Assembly: GCF_004216895.1 (NCBI RefSeq)
Contig: NZ_SGXE01000001.1
Coordinates: 1,656,208-1,720,207 of the forward strand
From: Aquimarina brevivitae
Lineage (GTDB): Bacteria; Bacteroidota; Bacteroidia; Flavobacteriales; Flavobacteriaceae
Direction: 5' to 3'
DNA: 64,000 bases
Both the position numbers and the translations under genes were made by a program. Positions 1,864 through 64,000 of the stretch are shown piece after piece. Under the pieces are notes generated by a model. The model was not told the origin of the DNA. It saw only the letters and a program-made list of their open reading frames with translations, and searched no databases. Position 1 is the stretch's first letter. Every line of letters starts with the position of its first letter.

Positions 1864-2601
1864 TTACTGCGTTATGGCAACTTTGTAATTGATTCCATAG
1901 GTTTTGGTAAGGTTATCATCATTAAAGATGTCCTTTACCGGGCCAGTAGCGATTTTCTTTACATTTAAAAAGGTAACCCAATCAAAATATTCTGGTACAG
2001 TTTGTAAATCGTGATGTACTACCACCACTGTTTTGCCGGCTTTTCTTAATTCTTTAAGAATATTGATAATTGCTTTTTCTGTGGTAGCATCTACTCCCTG
2101 AAAAGGTTCATCCATAAAATAAATAGAAGCATTTTGAACCAAAGCCCTTGCTAAGAAAATACGTTGCTGCTGCCCACCTGAAAGCTGACTAATCTGCCTA
2201 CTTTTAAAGGATAACATTCCTACTTTTTCCAAAGCTTCTAACGCTGCTTTTTTTTCTTTTTGACCTGGACGCTTAATCCAGCCAAGGCTTCCATAAGTTC
2301 CCATCATCACTACATCCAACGCGGTTGTAGGAAAATCCCAATCTACACTACCTTTCTGAGGAACATATGCAACTAGGGCTCTATTTTTTTTGTAGGGCTT
2401 ACCATAAATCTCCACGCTACCTGCTATTGGTTTTAGAATGTCCAGGATAGCTTTAATCAAGGTAGATTTTCCAGCACCGTTAGGTCCAACAATAGCCATA
2501 AGCACACCTTCAGGAATTGCCAAATCAATATCCCACAACACAGGTTTGTAATCATATGCGACAGTAAGGTCATCAATTTTTACAGCTATTTGATCTTCCA
2601 T
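1864..2601 (-). CDS. Metal ABC transporter ATP-binding protein (TroB/MntB/ZnuC type)
   Basis: A 245-residue cytoplasmic ATPase that powers metal uptake through the two permeases encoded downstream. It shows Walker [10 protein letters not shown] at residues 39-47, the ABC signature LSGGQQQR, Walker B IYFMDEPF followed by QGVDATTE, and the switch histidine in VVVVHHDL. Length is normal for the family. Its ATG overlaps the stop of the solute-binding lipoprotein gene by one base, so translation is probably coupled. The neighbours define the system as Zn/Mn/Fe importer rather than exporter. Confidence 0.93.
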
Positions 2602-3523: not shown

Positions 3524-4315
3524 TTATTTTGGTAATCTTATACTTACACCAGCACTTAATAACAAGTTTTGATCACTTTGAATTCCGGATCCAACTGTAG
3601 CATCTAATTGGATCAAATCTGTAACCAGATAGGTTAAACCAGCATCCCATAGGTGGTTAGCCTGGCTGTCTTCCGGAAAATCTCCATATAACTCTGCATA
3701 CAACCCAAATTTATTGGTAACACTATATCCATATGCCAAGGTATATATATAGGCTGCCTCAGGAGAATCATCACCCCAAACCGCACCAATATTATAGGAT
3801 AAACTCGACTTTTCACTTAGGGTATGAGCAAAAGAAAATCTAAAATTAGTGCCTGTAGTTTCGGGTCTAAAATCCTGCGAAGCGGTAAATGGAAGGAAGA
3901 TATGCCCGATCAAACCAATTTCTGGTAGCAATCCTTTTTCTTCTGTAATATTTACTTTGGCACCAAACAATAGCGGCGACAATCCATTTTGTACTGTGTT
4001 CAGCTCTGTACCGTCAATTTCAGTTTTAATTTCGGAAAAATCCCAACCGATTCTTAACTCTAACCGTTCTAAAAGGCCGATTCGCATTAATGTAGTATTA
4101 AAAGTTGTGTTTTTTAGTACCACATTTAGGTCTTCTGATTCTTCATAGAAAGCACCGGTTTCAATTTGAACTGTACCTATAGGTACAACAGTTGGGGATT
4201 CGGTTGCATCAGGTCTGTCTGTTACTAGAGGAGGGGGTGTCGTTTCTTGTGCTATTATAGAACCGCCAATAAGCAAAGAAAAAAATGTAAGTAAACTTAT
4301 GCTATTTATTTTCAT
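3524..4315 (-). CDS. Outer-membrane beta-barrel protein, first gene of the metal-uptake operon
   Basis: A 263-residue exported protein with a signal peptide (FFSLLIGGSIIAQ, cleavage after about residue 22). It contains the phrase VTDRPDATESPTVVPIGTVQIETG that is typical of the transporter/MetA-pathway-like outer-membrane family (PF13557). The rest alternates polar and hydrophobic residues, as beta-barrel strands do, and ends in GVSIRLPK. It is the first gene of the operon, 8 nt ahead of the solute-binding lipoprotein and only 51 nt from the divergent regulator. The position suggests it lets metal, or a metal complex, across the outer membrane; substrate is not shown by sequence. Confidence 0.8.
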   Translation of the reverse strand: MKINSISLLTFFSLLIGGSIIAQETTPPPLVTDRPDATESPTVVPIGTVQIETGAFYEESEDLNVVLKNTTFNTTLMRIGLLERLELRIGWDFSEIKTEIDGTELNTVQNGLSPLLFGAKVNITEEKGLLPEIGLIGHIFLPFTASQDFRPETTGTNFRFSFAHTLSEKSSLSYNIGAVWGDDSPEAAYIYTLAYGYSVTNKFGLYAELYGDFPEDSQANHLWDAGLTYLVTDLIQLDATVGSGIQSDQNLLLSAGVSIRLPK

Positions 4316-4359
4316 TAGTATTATTAAATTTGTAATGTTATAAATGCAAAACTAGAAAA

Positions 4360-4375
4360 GTTAGTTATGACTAAC
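4360..4375. promoter_or_regulatory. Candidate DtxR/MntR-type operator overlapping the regulator start codon
   Basis: GTTAGTTATGACTAAC is a perfect inverted repeat: 6-bp arms GTTAGT/ACTAAC around TATG. It contains the start codon of the DtxR-family gene (ATG at 4367) and lies 45 bp from the start of the divergent metal-uptake operon. The arms resemble the TTAGG...CCTAA style of DtxR-family sites. A role as metal-responsive operator is inference from symmetry and position. Confidence 0.5.
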
Positions 4376-5056
4376 AAAATAAATCTACAAAATTTAACGA
4401 AAAGTGAAGAGGATTATCTCAAAGCTATTTTTCAATTATTAAATGATAATGAAAATGAAAAGGTTGGGAATAATTTATTAGCGGATTATATGAGTGTTTC
4501 GCCGGCTTCGAGTAACAATATGATTAAAAAGCTTACTTCAAAAAAATACGTTAGTAGTAAAAAGTACGGTAAGCTGGAATTAACGGAAGAAGGTCGCTTA
4601 GTAGCTGTTCGTTTAATACGTAAGCACAGACTCTGGGAAACTTTTTTGTATAATTATTTAAATTTTACCTGGGATGAAGTGCACGAAGTCGCTGAGCAAT
4701 TAGAGCATATAAAGTCTCATAAGCTTATTGATGAATTGGAGCGTTTTATGGATTTTCCGGCGAAAGATCCGCACGGTGAATTTATACCTAATGCTCAGGG
4801 GGATTATGTAGAGGTTCCAAAAGTGATGCTTTCTTCCGTTAAAGAAGGAGACACTTGCAAGCTGGTTGCAGTGAATGATGGGTCTGTGGATTTTCTTAGA
4901 TATGTGTCCAATATAGGTTTAATGCTAAGTTCAGAAATCGAAGTCTTGGAAATCCGCGAATTTGATAACTCTTTGCGTATTGGTTTTGAGAATAAAGAGG
5001 AAACCATCACCAAGAAATTTGCGGATAACGTATTTGTAAAACTAATTTCTAAATGA
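4367..5056 (+). CDS. DtxR/MntR-family metal-dependent transcriptional regulator
   Basis: A 229-residue cytoplasmic repressor. The N-terminus (LTKSEEDYLKAIFQL) and winged helix (residues about 8-70, SVSPASSNNMIKKLTSKKYV) match the DtxR family. A dimerisation and metal-binding helical domain follows (VRLIRKHRLWETFLY, EVAEQLEHIKSHKLIDELERF) and then a C-terminal FeoA/SH3-like domain (about 155-229). It is divergent from the metal-uptake operon, with 51 bp between start codons, so it most likely represses that operon when metal is sufficient. A palindrome over its own start codon suggests autoregulation. The start is supported by the conserved N-terminal motif, which leaves no room for a later ATG. 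Confidence 0.92.
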   Translation: MTNKINLQNLTKSEEDYLKAIFQLLNDNENEKVGNNLLADYMSVSPASSNNMIKKLTSKKYVSSKKYGKLELTEEGRLVAVRLIRKHRLWETFLYNYLNFTWDEVHEVAEQLEHIKSHKLIDELERFMDFPAKDPHGEFIPNAQGDYVEVPKVMLSSVKEGDTCKLVAVNDGSVDFLRYVSNIGLMLSSEIEVLEIREFDNSLRIGFENKEETITKKFADNVFVKLISK

Positions 5057-59044: not shown

Positions 59045-60718
59045 TTATTTTATTCTCTGCTCTAATTCAGCATTTTTCTTTTTTAACTGTTCAACTTCTT
59101 TTTGAAGTTGTGCTGTCTTTTTGTTTTGCTCAATCATATAAAGTGTAAGCTCTTCAATTTTTTGCAGGAGTTTGGCATTCATTTCACCCAATTGAACACC
59201 TTCTTTTTCCACTTCTGCCGCAGAGGGGATGTTTTGCAGGTGACCTTTTTCATTAATATGTTGTTCAACTTCTTGCAGAGTAGGTAAATTATACTCAGGT
59301 TCAAAAACATAGTCTGGCCATCCTACCAGGTCCACTTTTACTTCTTTACTATGAATGGTGCCATTGACAGCTAATTTAGCGTCTGGGGTATAAGTCCCTA
59401 TGCCCACATTTCCATTAGTTCCAGAAACATTAGGGTCTAAAACGATGTGATTTTGGGAGGAAAGTACTAAATCAGTTATGTTAGAATTACTAGTACTTCT
59501 GGTAGCTTGAATTTCAAAACGTCCATCAATATCAGTCTTAAATCTAGCTAAGGAATGTAAACCTTGCACTCTTAACTTTGCATCTGGGTTTGTAGAGCCT
59601 ATACCGACATTACCGCTTGCTGTTATTAAAAGTTTGTCATCACCTCCATTGGTTCTAAAACTTAAGGAGTTATCCGAGTTATTATATCGTATACCTCCCA
59701 TAGCTCCACCATCTTTATCTCCAAAAAAGAAACTAGCTCTTCCTTCTGTTCCTGAAATAATATTTGCAGAAGTATAATATCCTGGCGCAGAATTACTTTG
59801 AAAAGTTGCCACATTACCAGCAATGATAGGAGCATTTCCTTGGCCATTACTTTTTGAAACATGAAGATTAACATCTGGGTTTACAGTCCCAATACCCAAA
59901 TTACCATTTTGCATTAGGGACATTTTGCTACTTCCATCAACCTGAAATCCAAATCGAGAGTTTGCGGTGCCACCAGTCATATTCATATAGGCATTTCCAT
60001 CTCCTGCGGTGAATAAAGTAATAGATCTATTATTATCATAAGATGTTTTAATTCCTCCTCTTACCTCAAGTTTAGAAGTAGGTGATATTGTTCCAATACC
60101 CAAATTACCATTTGCAGACATGGTCATTAGCTTTTGGTCAAAATTTGTCCATTGAAATAAAGATCTATTCGTTATTCCTTGATCATTAGTAGATCTTCTA
60201 GTGTCAAATCTCATAATACTATTGTCACTTGAATTGTCATTTGTAGCATCAGTAGACCCAATAAATATCAAAGAGCTTATATTTGCAGACTGTACATTTC
60301 CTTTAATAGCAGGTAGAAATCTGTTGCTAACACCAGTGATATTAAATATTTGCAGATAATCCGAGGGAGCATCAGATACTTTAAAGCGCATAAAACTTTC
60401 TGTTTGATTTAGTGCGGTATTTGAAAGTATATCTAATCGAGACCCGGGATTAGTGGTGCCAATACCTAAATTTCCATTAGGATTTAATGTCATTAGGTGG
60501 TCGGTTCCTTTATTAAAAAAATAAATATTTCCTATTGTTTTTTCAACACTACCGATATATAAATGATTAGAGCCATTAAGGCCAAAAGCTCTTGTATAAT
60601 CAGTTTCACCAGCTTTTTGAACTCTAATGTAGTCTGTAGCATTGCTTAAATTAATATTTTGTGCTTTAGATATTCTCGTGCACAATAATAAGATAGATAC
60701 AAGAATAATTCTTTTCAT
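59045..60718 (-). CDS. Tail-fibre-like repeat protein, paralogue A
   Basis: A 557-residue exported protein with a short signal peptide (LVSILLLCTRISKAQ). It carries five copies of the repeat GN[LV]GIG[TS]xxP (LNPNGNLGIGTTNP, SANGNLGIGTISP, MQNGNLGIGTVNP, TASGNVGIGSTNP, GTNGNVGIGTYTP), typical of fibre-like beta-solenoid proteins. The last 110 residues hold a conserved closing block (GWPDYVFEPEYNLPTLQEV, GHLQNIPSAAEVEKEG) and a coiled coil (KLLQKIEELTLYMIEQ). Residues from DAKL to MIEQ (86 aa) match paralogue B at 81 positions. It begins 7 nt after paralogue B, so they form one operon. Function unknown; an adhesive or surface fibre is plausible. Confidence 0.85.
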   Translation of the reverse strand: MKRIILVSILLLCTRISKAQNINLSNATDYIRVQKAGETDYTRAFGLNGSNHLYIGSVEKTIGNIYFFNKGTDHLMTLNPNGNLGIGTTNPGSRLDILSNTALNQTESFMRFKVSDAPSDYLQIFNITGVSNRFLPAIKGNVQSANISSLIFIGSTDATNDNSSDNSIMRFDTRRSTNDQGITNRSLFQWTNFDQKLMTMSANGNLGIGTISPTSKLEVRGGIKTSYDNNRSITLFTAGDGNAYMNMTGGTANSRFGFQVDGSSKMSLMQNGNLGIGTVNPDVNLHVSKSNGQGNAPIIAGNVATFQSNSAPGYYTSANIISGTEGRASFFFGDKDGGAMGGIRYNNSDNSLSFRTNGGDDKLLITASGNVGIGSTNPDAKLRVQGLHSLARFKTDIDGRFEIQATRSTSNSNITDLVLSSQNHIVLDPNVSGTNGNVGIGTYTPDAKLAVNGTIHSKEVKVDLVGWPDYVFEPEYNLPTLQEVEQHINEKGHLQNIPSAAEVEKEGVQLGEMNAKLLQKIEELTLYMIEQNKKTAQLQKEVEQLKKKNAELEQRIK

Positions 60719-60725
60719 GATTTAT

Positions 60726-62090
60726 TTATTTTTTCAATTCTTTTATTTCTTTTTGTTGATCTAATACTAGCTCTTTAAGTTGATTCATTTTTTTATCCTG
60801 CTCAATCATGTATAGCGTTAGCTCTTCAATTTTTTGCAGGAGTTTGGCATTCATTTCCCCTAATTTAACACCTTCTTTTTCTACTTCTGCAGCAGAAGGG
60901 ATATTTTGCAAGTGACCTTTTTCATTAATATGTTGCTCAACTTCTTGCAGGGTAGGTAGATGGTAATCGCTTTCAAAAACATAATCAGGCCATCCGATTA
61001 GATCAACTTTTACTTCCTTAGAATGTATAGTGCCATTAACCGCTAATTTAGCGTCTGGTGTTGTGGTGCCTATACCAAGATTACCATTTTGGGTAAGATA
61101 CATTTTAGTACTGTAATTAGAAAAATTATTGTCATCGTGTGTTCCAGTCATACTAAAAGCTAATCCATAACTTCCCATACTATTTTCAGTATGTAAAATT
61201 GCAGATTGATATAAACTCCCACTTCCTAACCATCTAGAAACAAATAGGGCAGGTTCTCTGCTTCCTTGATTCAATTGTAATGTTCCTATAGAGGTTTTCA
61301 TTCTATTAAAAGCTCCGTCTACAATTTGTAACTTTCTTCCTGGATTTGAAGTTCCAATCCCGACATTACCTGTTGCGAAATTATGATAAGAAGCTTGATA
61401 ATGTATAGGTTTCCAGGTATTATTATTCCAATCGCGAGCACGTACTAACCCAAAATCAGATGCACTATAGGCAAGGTTCATCGTTACACCACTTGTAGGA
61501 TTGGTAATTCCTGTTACATCAATAGACTGAGAGGCACGAATACGCCCAATAACGTCTAGTTTTTCAGAAGGGTTAGTTGTTCCAATACCCACATTACCAT
61601 TATTGGTTAAAACGGTAAAAAAAGGAGTGTTTGAGCTGTCTCTGATATTTATCTTACCACCTAGATAATCAATCCAAGCTTTATTTTGTCCATTTTCTCT
61701 AAACAAAAAACGTCCAGGGAACCCTGTAGCTGGGTCAACAACGATGTTAGCTGCTCCCAAACTCCCATTACTTATAGCTTTCGCAGCAATACCACTCTCT
61801 CCCGTAAATTGAACTGTTAATCTTTGAGGAGGATTAGTGGTTCCTATACCTACATTACCACCAGGAAGTATAGTTAATCTTTCGTTGGCACTGGTAGCAT
61901 CTTCAAAAACACCCCAGCGATCAGCTGTTATCATTCCGGTTGCCCAGATGCCATTGCTTGAGGTGCTTTGGAATAAGCTGACACCGGTAGGAGACTGAAG
62001 ATCTATTTTTTCATTAGTAGAGGTTTCTGTTTGTGCAAAACTTATTCTTGTTAATAGTATAAAAGTCGCTATGGCTATTATATTTTTCAT
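60726..62090 (-). CDS. Tail-fibre-like repeat protein, paralogue B
   Basis: A 454-residue exported protein with signal peptide ATFILLTRISFAQ. It has four GN[LV]GIGTxNP-type repeats (LPGGNVGIGTTNP, TNNGNVGIGTTNP, FATGNVGIGTSNP, TQNGNLGIGTTTP) and the same C-terminal block as paralogue A (GWPDYVFESDYHLPTLQEV, then the coiled coil ending KELVLDQQKEIKELKK). The middle regions of the two differ, so the ends are conserved while the shafts vary. It is the first gene of the operon, under a consensus promoter with a palindrome. No S74 autocleavage chaperone motif was recognised. Confidence 0.85.
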   Translation of the reverse strand: MKNIIAIATFILLTRISFAQTETSTNEKIDLQSPTGVSLFQSTSSNGIWATGMITADRWGVFEDATSANERLTILPGGNVGIGTTNPPQRLTVQFTGESGIAAKAISNGSLGAANIVVDPATGFPGRFLFRENGQNKAWIDYLGGKINIRDSSNTPFFTVLTNNGNVGIGTTNPSEKLDVIGRIRASQSIDVTGITNPTSGVTMNLAYSASDFGLVRARDWNNNTWKPIHYQASYHNFATGNVGIGTSNPGRKLQIVDGAFNRMKTSIGTLQLNQGSREPALFVSRWLGSGSLYQSAILHTENSMGSYGLAFSMTGTHDDNNFSNYSTKMYLTQNGNLGIGTTTPDAKLAVNGTIHSKEVKVDLIGWPDYVFESDYHLPTLQEVEQHINEKGHLQNIPSAAEVEKEGVKLGEMNAKLLQKIEELTLYMIEQDKKMNQLKELVLDQQKEIKELKK

Positions 62091-62395
62091 ATTAAATAAT
62101 TTGATTGTACTTTAAGTAATGTGTCTTAAAGGGAGGAAATGTTACCGTTATTTTGGGTAAAAAAAATTAAAAAGCAAAAATATAACCTTGTATATCATTA
62201 TACAAGCTATGTTAATGAATTATTAAAATAAGATTATCGGTAGTAGAATTTCATCATCAGTTTGTTAACGATATAGCGTTATGACAGGAGTAATGCATTG
62301 GATATAGATTACTTTATTAGGTAATCCAAGTAAGGATATGGTACTGCATTTTGTTGATCTCTATAACTGCCTAGAGAACTTCAATTAAATTTACG
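62091..62395. other. 305-nt gap: promoter and operator plus AT-rich sequence
   Basis: The right half (62207-62395) has no ORF with coding character. The left half holds the operator-promoter described at 62175-62206. No terminator for the nucleoid-associated protein gene (ends 62396) was recognised. Confidence 0.5.
62175..62206 (-). promoter_or_regulatory. Consensus promoter of the fibre pair with embedded 20-bp palindrome
   Basis: On the minus strand TTG (62205-62203) and TATTTTTG (62182-62175) are separated by 20 nt, a full promoter match. The perfect palindrome CTTGTATATCATTATACAAG (62187-62206, 8-bp arms, 4-nt spacer) covers the -33 element and most of the spacer. A repressor bound there would block the polymerase. 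The leader to the ATG at 62090 is about 80 nt. Confidence 0.62.
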
Positions 62396-63454
62396 TTACC
62401 CTTTAACTTCTTTATTGAAATACACCAAATAGTAGTACATTTGCTTTTCTTCATCCCAACCTTTTTCTACAAATTTCTCTGCTGACTCTGGATTGATAAA
62501 ATCCATTTTGATTTGCACATTCGTATCTAAACTGATGAGATTTTTTATCTTTTTGCGAGCAGCAGACACTGCATTGTTAGCAATAGGAAAGGTGGTCAAA
62601 TCTTCGATTTGATACTTTGGAGCCTTTTCTGTTTTATAGTTCTTAAATTCAGGTATAAGATTAGGATTGTCGATTACTTCATTTAAAAACGCAGTTTCCT
62701 CAAAATTATCGTTTTTTGCAAAGTGATTGATTGCTCTATTCATAAACATCACTTCTTCCTTCTTATCCTCAGCAGGTAGCACTACGTCTTTTGCAAAATC
62801 CTGGCAGAATTTCATATACTTTTTAGTATAAAAATTCTCATCTGCAAAGGCCTCAACGCCTAAAAAGTGTTCCAACCAATACTTGGTATCGTATTTATTA
62901 GAATCTACAGATAGTATCTTATACCCTTCTTCTTTTTTGTGATTAAAAATTAGACAGCCTTTATCAAGTTTGTTAAGGTTAACCCCTTGCTGGATTAATA
63001 ACTCTATATGCGATTCTTTCTCTTCAAACTGTAAAAAGTCGTGCTTTAATTCTGATTTAAATATACCAACAGCACTAGTTTTTTCATTATCAATGGTTAC
63101 GTTATCTAAATAGGCTACATAAACTTCTCCGCTTTTGATATGAGGGTGTTGTGATTGTTCATATAATAAAGAAGCTATACGTCTCGATTTTTCGTGAACT
63201 GAAGAAGGATGATCGAAAATTTCGGTGACAATTTTATACAGCGGATTAAATTCCACATCTACCTCATTGGCAAACTGAAAGTAGTTTTCTTCTTTCTCTC
63301 TAAAGGGTTTAAAGAAATACTCTTTTAACAGTGCTATCAGCTCATCATTAAGTTGGTAGGGTACATCTGATAAAAAAATATTTTCATTTCTACTTTTGTT
63401 ACCAATACGATGAACCGAAAGGGATTCAATCTGAGTGCTGTATAAGTTGATCAT
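62396..63454 (-). CDS. Nucleoid-associated protein (NdpA/YejK family)
   Basis: A 352-residue cytoplasmic protein of the 37-kDa nucleoid-associated family (PF04245). It begins MINLYSTQIESLSVHRIGNK, and PFREKEENYFQFANEVDVE, SGEVYVAYLDNVTIDNEKTSAVGIFK and GCLIFNHKKEEGYKILSVDS are typical. Family members bind DNA or the nucleoid, with an obscure role. No signal peptide is present. It ends about 200 nt from the fibre-pair promoter and starts 54 nt from the partial gene at the window edge. Confidence 0.9.
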   Translation of the reverse strand: MINLYSTQIESLSVHRIGNKSRNENIFLSDVPYQLNDELIALLKEYFFKPFREKEENYFQFANEVDVEFNPLYKIVTEIFDHPSSVHEKSRRIASLLYEQSQHPHIKSGEVYVAYLDNVTIDNEKTSAVGIFKSELKHDFLQFEEKESHIELLIQQGVNLNKLDKGCLIFNHKKEEGYKILSVDSNKYDTKYWLEHFLGVEAFADENFYTKKYMKFCQDFAKDVVLPAEDKKEEVMFMNRAINHFAKNDNFEETAFLNEVIDNPNLIPEFKNYKTEKAPKYQIEDLTTFPIANNAVSAARKKIKNLISLDTNVQIKMDFINPESAEKFVEKGWDEEKQMYYYLVYFNKEVKG

Positions 63455-63508: not shown

Positions 63509-64000
63509 TTAATTCCAATTTTCGTCAAAATCTAAGTCATCATAATCATCTAGATTCATGACATCTTCATCATTTACATCGTCATCAAAACTATCATCTG
63601 CAACAAACTCCTTGTCTGGCGCTTGGTCGGGTAATTGTCCGTGTACAAACATTACATTAGGATATTCTCTACCGTTCTCATATTCGGCTATCTCTGCCAG
63701 TTCTACAAAAAAGGTCCACATACTAAGAAAGTCGTAAACGTAAATCATCTTGGGAGACGCTTCAGTGACAATATCATTTATCGTAGTTTCGTTCATAAGT
63801 TTTACAGGAACACTGCCATCACTCATATCAAACAACGAAATTTCTTCTCCCTGGTTCCAGTCCTCGTCACTGGCGTAAAATGAAGCAACCTCATTGCCAT
63901 CAAATCCAAAAGATTGCGTAATTACATTATGGAACTGCTCTAATGTAGCTTCTTCCTCAATTTCTATGTCTCTAAACACATCTTCTTCGGTATCCAATAT
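63509..64000 (-). CDS. pRiA4b ORF-3-like family protein, N-terminus outside window
   Basis: A partial gene; its 5' end lies beyond 64000. An in-frame TTG at 63997 is unlikely to be the start, since homologues have a further N-terminal strand before ILDTEEDVFRDI. The visible 163 or so residues (ATLEQFHNVITQSFGFDGNE, FYASDEDWNQGEEISLFDM, YVYDFLSMWTFFVELAEI) match the IS1096/pRiA4b ORF-3-like fold (PF07929). The last 30 residues are highly acidic (DDSFDDDVNDEDVMNLDDYDD). Function is unknown; despite the name no transposase is present. Confidence 0.8.
   Translation of the reverse strand: MLDTEEDVFRDIEIEEEATLEQFHNVITQSFGFDGNEVASFYASDEDWNQGEEISLFDMSDGSVPVKLMNETTINDIVTEASPKMIYVYDFLSMWTFFVELAEIAEYENGREYPNVMFVHGQLPDQAPDKEFVADDSFDDDVNDEDVMNLDDYDDLDFDENWN

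Follow-up and report, generated by a model that had tools for sequence, protein, structure and literature searches.

The closest described counterparts of the proteins treated here are the mosaic adhesive trimer (MAT) fibres of Bdellovibrio. As far as they are set out in the account of Caulton et al. (2024, PMC10769870), MATs are conserved at the N-terminus, which carries a beta-rich domain of ~130 amino acids after the signal peptide, and end in varied C-terminal tips or an S74 chaperone; their surface display and ligand binding are given there as shown. On the side of gene control, the nearest described motif is SM6 of Flavobacterium psychrophilum, an extracytoplasmic function (ECF) type motif with a CGT box in the -10 region, and leaders in that species are described as having a median length of 24 nucleotides (nt) (PMC9723704). 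Classical integrons, the third system of interest, are described as holding promoterless cassettes reliant on one leading promoter. Here, two adjacent fibre-like genes, A and B, and a two-box element upstream of them, GGTAAC-N15-GACAC[A/G]T, were analysed in a stretch of 64,000 nt from Aquimarina brevivitae (assembly GCF_004216895.1, contig NZ_SGXE01000001.1, positions 1,656,208 to 1,720,207; hereafter the window). On balance, it seems probable that A and B are exported MAT-like fibres encoded in one unit, and that its transcription starts at a sigma-A type promoter, at the element as a promoter of an Aquimarina-wide regulon, or at both. The sequence itself shows the pair, the homology of its shafts and an element that is conserved with a fixed spacing and orientation; that the element acts as a promoter, and for which kind of sigma factor, is what these features would suggest.

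The fibre pair and its shafts

The features of the pair and its leader are as follows.

60726-62090, minus strand: open reading frame (ORF) A, first gene of the pair, 454 amino acids, exported fibre-like protein with four GNxGIG repeats
59045-60718, minus strand: ORF B, second gene of the pair, 557 amino acids, exported fibre-like paralogue with five GNxGIG repeats (one GIGS)
60804-61061, minus strand: constant C-terminal block of A, residues 344-429, 81 of 86 residues identical to B
59132-59389, minus strand: constant C-terminal block of B, residues 444-529, from the best ungapped alignment with A
62119-62146, minus strand: two-box promoter-like element GGTAAC-N15-GACACAT, ending 28 nt before the ATG of A
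62175-62205, minus strand: sigma-A type promoter match TTG-N20-TATTTTTG, a full match to TTG-N20-TAnnTTTG

An earlier interpretation made from the letters alone (the sequence-only reading) had described two secreted paralogues with a shared closing block, encoded in one operon. The ungapped alignment of the two 86-residue blocks bore out the paralogy, the genes lie on the same strand with a gap of 7 nt, and both N-termini resemble type I signal peptides when judged by eye, without a predictor. Its count of GN[LV]GIGT repeats, five versus four, was right in number, with positions 82, 204, 272, 369 and 436 in B and 78, 165, 241 and 336 in A, and has to be corrected for the copy at B369, which reads GIGS instead of GIGT. 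Scans of A and B gave no Pfam family above its cut-off and no NCBIfam match.

A profile built from 35 family members matched the solved structures 8ond (Bd2133, E 4.9e-20), 8oml (8.8e-9), 8ojn (3.8e-8), 8ol4 (1.7e-6) and 8on4 (1.5e-4), and thus five distinct MAT sequences. The next entries after these were two of Myelin regulatory factor, with E above 0.4; the MAT capping-loop motif is described as also finding this protein (Caulton et al. 2024, PMC10769870). The AlphaFold single-chain model was poor, with a predicted local distance difference test score (pLDDT) of 59 and a predicted template modelling score (pTM) of 0.26, which in our view is not surprising when an intertwined trimer is modelled as a single chain. 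When this low-confidence model was used for a fold search of the PDB, the first 14 rows were MAT chains. These matches support homology of the A and B shafts to the solved MAT shafts, as judged by profile and model, and with it the original description of the proteins as fibre-like.

A and B would accordingly be exported fibre proteins with repeat-bearing shafts homologous to trimeric MAT shafts, in which the GN[LV]GIGT..P motif is probably a loop at the edge of the intertwined beta shaft. The constant C-terminal block contains a long helix and is likely the trimer-forming or anchoring end; the N-terminal side and the repeat number would be the variable parts of the fibre. Trimer formation, a position at the surface and such a role of the C-terminal block may be expected from this comparison. 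The invariant columns of the 35 family members all fall at residues 336-431, except Q20.

The fibre family as such is common. In A. brevivitae the C-terminal block is present eight times, spread over three gene clusters: twice in this pair and three times each in C4 and C7. Of 52 Aquimarina genomes, 47 have matches to A, at as many as 16 places in a single genome. In the order, 34 genomes out of 148 have the block, that of A. brevivitae counted. The closest named relative is Aquimarina sp. NAT579. A syntenic orthologue in the genome G047, located behind the same nucleoid-associated protein gene (NdpA), is 65-68% identical to A and has 533 amino acids and six GIG motifs, versus 454 and four in A, so the suggested variation of the shaft was found as a difference in length between species. 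At the level of titles and listings, no literature report on this protein family or on the two-box element turned up.

The C-terminal block was also considered as a degenerate S74 domain, and this was rejected. Pfam S74 had no match in A or B and none in the whole genome of A. brevivitae; 18 of the 52 Aquimarina genomes have one. With the shaft left in, an hhalign comparison of 29 S74 with 35 family sequences gave 94%. When the shaft was first cut away (24 S74 and 22 family sequences, 150 columns), with the other sequences dropped by text rules and the family segments poorly aligned, the value was 20.5%, from a helix match of 15 columns. The clean cut by alignment columns (25 of the 29 S74 and all 35 family sequences) gave 0.3% and a score of 12.7, within the range of the shuffled-column control (mean 11.6, maximum 19.3).

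A conserved two-box element before fibre operons

The element was present in all four leaders first compared, namely those of A, of clusters C4 and C7 and of G047. The genome of A. brevivitae contains it nine times exactly and seven times with one mismatch; the reversed pattern gave two matches at up to one mismatch. Its spacing is rigid. Among 112 loci picked independently of the motif (498,647 bases, overlaps included), 11 distinct exact sites were found at spacer 15, four of them being the discovery set, and there were no exact sites at spacers 8-14 and 16-24 or for three rearranged controls. Searched as GGTAACNNTT-N11-GACACRT, the element had 402 sites in 40 of the 52 Aquimarina genomes (reversed control 0) and one site in 147 other genomes of the order (reversed control five). 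The extended consensus is GGTAACAWTT-N11-GACAC[A/G]TAnnTnwA.

To relate the element to the fibre genes, 42 distinct fibre ORFs were examined with 250 nt upstream, in loci that are mostly best matches and not the whole family. With at most one mismatch, the element stood before eight of 27 apparent first genes of fibre operons as called by script, or nine when L026 is added, where the script had set the start codon too early. It stood before none of the 15 internal fibre genes, and letter-shuffled motifs gave a mean of 0.007 and a maximum of 2.

Orientation was tested on 66 unique sites by asking for an ORF of at least 90 amino acids starting within 250 nt downstream on the same strand. Some of these sites belong to the cassette arrays described below, and a rough rule (AAACGTT or a similar sequence no more than 20 nt away) divided them into 27 cassette and 39 non-cassette sites, several of the latter still looking like cassette junctions. 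The non-cassette sites pointed toward an ORF in 34 of 39 cases (mirrored test 3 of 39), and the cassette sites in 22 of 27 (mirrored test 2 of 27). The distance from element to ATG ranged from 5 to 203 nt and was mostly 20-80 nt. A set of 18 sites in 17 loci gave 17 before an ORF of at least 96 amino acids and one (L133) before a 47-amino-acid ORF. The genes behind the element include that of D-Tyr-tRNA deacylase (dtd, by PF02580) at L120 and L126 and, with one mismatch, at L084 in A. brevivitae, where in each case the element lies between an rsgA-like gene and dtd; genes of GIY-YIG proteins (tested at L118, the others by eye); and, at L125, a gene for an exported protein related to the RHS/YD-like protein of C7 (28% identity, E 3e-32).

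The element may be read in another way, as a piece of a mobile cassette junction copied across the genus and without a regulatory role at the fibre operons. Many copies do lie in junctions with a nearly fixed spacer sequence (27 of the 66 unique sites by the simple rule). Outside the arrays, however, the boxes and the 15-nt spacing are kept and the spacer and flanks vary, the orientation to the next gene is also kept in the numbers just given, and in several species the element precedes first genes of fibre operons but no internal ones. We therefore consider this explanation improbable.

The element as a candidate promoter

GGTAAC resembles the -35 boxes of ECF promoters. The element also has traits of this type, with two unlike boxes, a spacer of 15 only and an orientation toward the gene. 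GGTAAC-N15-GACAC[A/G]T might thus be a promoter for an alternative (ECF-like) sigma factor, in which case the fibre operon would belong to an Aquimarina-wide regulon. A and B would then be transcribed as one unit from the element and/or from the sigma-A type promoter.

Several observations weigh against this account. At the fibre operons, 18 of the 27 first genes examined do not carry the element, and the sites of the orientation test are no random sample, having been found by pattern, by protein or by their non-cassette look, one of them outside the genus. In two genomes only 5-6 nt separate the end of the element from the ATG of dtd; were it a promoter, dtd would have a leaderless mRNA in these genomes. 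The second box, GACAC[A/G]T, differs from the CGT box of SM6, which was compared by description. With up to two mismatches, the element was found at none of the 24 Sigma70_r2 loci of the A. brevivitae genome; the usual self-regulated sigma gene was thus not found among these loci and had to be dropped as a pointer to the regulator. For the fibres themselves, the poor model, a single-chain prediction only, counts on the same side.

A further point of this kind comes from the sigma-A type boxes. The sequence-only reading had placed a consensus promoter before the pair, and a full sigma-A type match does stand at 62205-62175 on the minus strand. Full TTG-N17-21-TAnnTTTG matches occur upstream of the element in three of nine fibre leaders and the -7 box in six of nine, so the element could sit in a transcribed leader. 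There it would be bound by an RNA-binding protein or by a DNA-binding regulator, and the wide spread of ATG distances would suit such an arrangement. The nine leaders, however, gave no consensus RNA structure (0 pairs) and no Rfam family fell on the element, and the rigid 15-nt gap, the unlike boxes and the usual distance of 20-80 nt to the ATG fit a -35/-10 pair followed by short leaders. A leader element of this kind appears doubtful to us, and the promoter account is preferred. In the search for a leader RNA, the only Rfam match in the window was a weak one to a microRNA family inside ORF A (E 0.1, below the gathering score), and it was set aside.

Cassette arrays and RHS/YD-like proteins

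Integron-like cassette arrays were seen at L211, L134, L135, L212 and L213, where small ORFs sharing a strand lie next to a XerA/integron-type tyrosine recombinase. The repeat between the ORFs contains an imperfect inverted repeat, attC-like by our own reading, that ends in GGTAACATTTTGCCCTGCTACGACACATATATTAAACGTT. Most of the cassette ORFs examined have the promoter-like element before them (the 22 of 27 given above). In A. brevivitae, one array lies in the following region.

C2:1-6500 (L211): recombinase at 3912-4979, minus strand; element at 1934-1961, minus strand; the two are 2 kb apart

This recombinase passes the NCBIfam cut-off of NF040815 ("site-specific tyrosine recombinase/integron integrase") and does not reach the one set for TIGR02249, the integron integrase model. 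Among literature titles none dealt with arrays of this type in Aquimarina, which does not prove their absence from print.

An exported RHS/YD-like protein follows the fibre trio of C7 (L027, 8531-12022, plus strand; PF05593 at 22.6 bits, cut-off 22). A relative follows the fibre trio in G029 (L066 from 4415; element at L034, 3717), and further relatives occur at L125, with the element upstream, and at L127. As a general feature of fibre loci such a neighbour was rejected, for similarity to the C7 protein was found in just two of 13 other fibre loci checked (L064 and L066).

It is conceivable, and we propose it only tentatively, that the element represents an Aquimarina-restricted promoter class for an alternative sigma factor, which joins MAT-like fibre operons, RHS/YD-like exported proteins and cassette arrays with promoter-bearing junctions, and through which new cassettes would enter the regulon at once. 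If the element is a promoter, a regulon of the genus could be read from sequence, and it would cover exported fibres of the kind a predator uses for prey recognition.

The palindrome and the neighbouring genes

The sequence-only reading had also put the promoter under operator control.

62187-62206, no strand: palindrome of that reading, with 8-bp arms at 62187-62194 and 62199-62206 around TCAT; not conserved and near chance

What had been called a perfect 20-bp palindrome consists of two perfect 8-bp arms separated by TCAT, a tetramer that lacks self-complementarity. A sigma-A type promoter at this site is plausible from the sequence, and the arms overlap its -33 box and spacer, where a repressor on the CTTGTATA/TATACAAG repeat could toggle fibre display. 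When the 306-nt intergenic region was put through 1000 dinucleotide shuffles, however, 129 of them contained an inverted repeat this strong (arms of at least 8, spacer of up to 8), and repeats of this strength, with differing sequences, occur in three of nine fibre leaders. TTGTATAN4TATACAA with up to two mismatches was found once in the window, against 1.2 expected. The exact 20-mer is unique in the genome, and three matches with three mismatches, considered as further operators, were discarded as they all lie inside ORFs (L027, 6034-7035; L027, 7042-8508; L028, 1840-2427). The operator claim had been staked on conservation, and none was found: the palindrome is absent from the leaders of the G047 orthologue and of clusters C4 and C7, and the repeat together with its -7 box was present in one of 56 genomes, that of A. 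brevivitae, and missing from all 55 others. No regulator gene was among the six neighbour proteins scanned. Control by such a repressor is therefore highly improbable, and our proposed explanation places no repressor on the palindrome.

No phage protein was found among these six neighbours either, in agreement with the original statement that no phage genes are near; the rest of the window was judged from the ORF list only. Upstream of the fibre pair lie genes for a 37-kD nucleoid-associated protein (NA37/NdpA, PF04245; window 62396-63454, minus strand) and a PRiA4_ORF3-like protein (63509-64000, minus strand), and the NdpA gene holds the same place before the fibre genes in G047. After the pair comes a gene for a PLD-like protein with two PLDc_2 stretches (PF13091; 57631-58914, minus strand), which shows a weak likeness to DISARM DrmC, far below the cut-off of that model.

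Comparison with known systems

Phage tail fibres resemble A and B in that PHROGs tail-fibre families match via the repeats and the viral fold matches of the model include tail-fibre and S74 proteins. They differ in that only four of 50,697 phage records matched A by tblastn, at 26-32% identity, one of them (a Thermus phage) covering residues 174-451. A phage origin of the pair was rejected on this ground; the distant past of the shaft may still be phage.

The element is similar to SM6 of F. psychrophilum in its two boxes, its short spacing and its position before genes that include envelope and export functions, and differs from it in its range, with a site in just 1 of 147 genomes elsewhere in the order. 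Should it prove to be a promoter, captured cassettes would need no single leading promoter, unlike those of classical integrons.

MATs and the proteins of this family both have a long beta shaft with repeats behind a signal peptide, and in both there are many paralogues per genome. The layout is reversed. In A and B it is the C-terminal block that stays constant and the N-terminal side that differs, which is the opposite of the conserved N-terminal end and diversified C-terminal tip of MATs, and MATs can end in an S74 chaperone, a domain with no copy in the A. brevivitae genome. Because the layout is inverted and the C-terminal block is not S74, the pair is better said to work like a MAT fibre than to be a MAT. 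The fibre pair would thereby add to the MAT-type shafts a Bacteroidota branch with an inverted layout.

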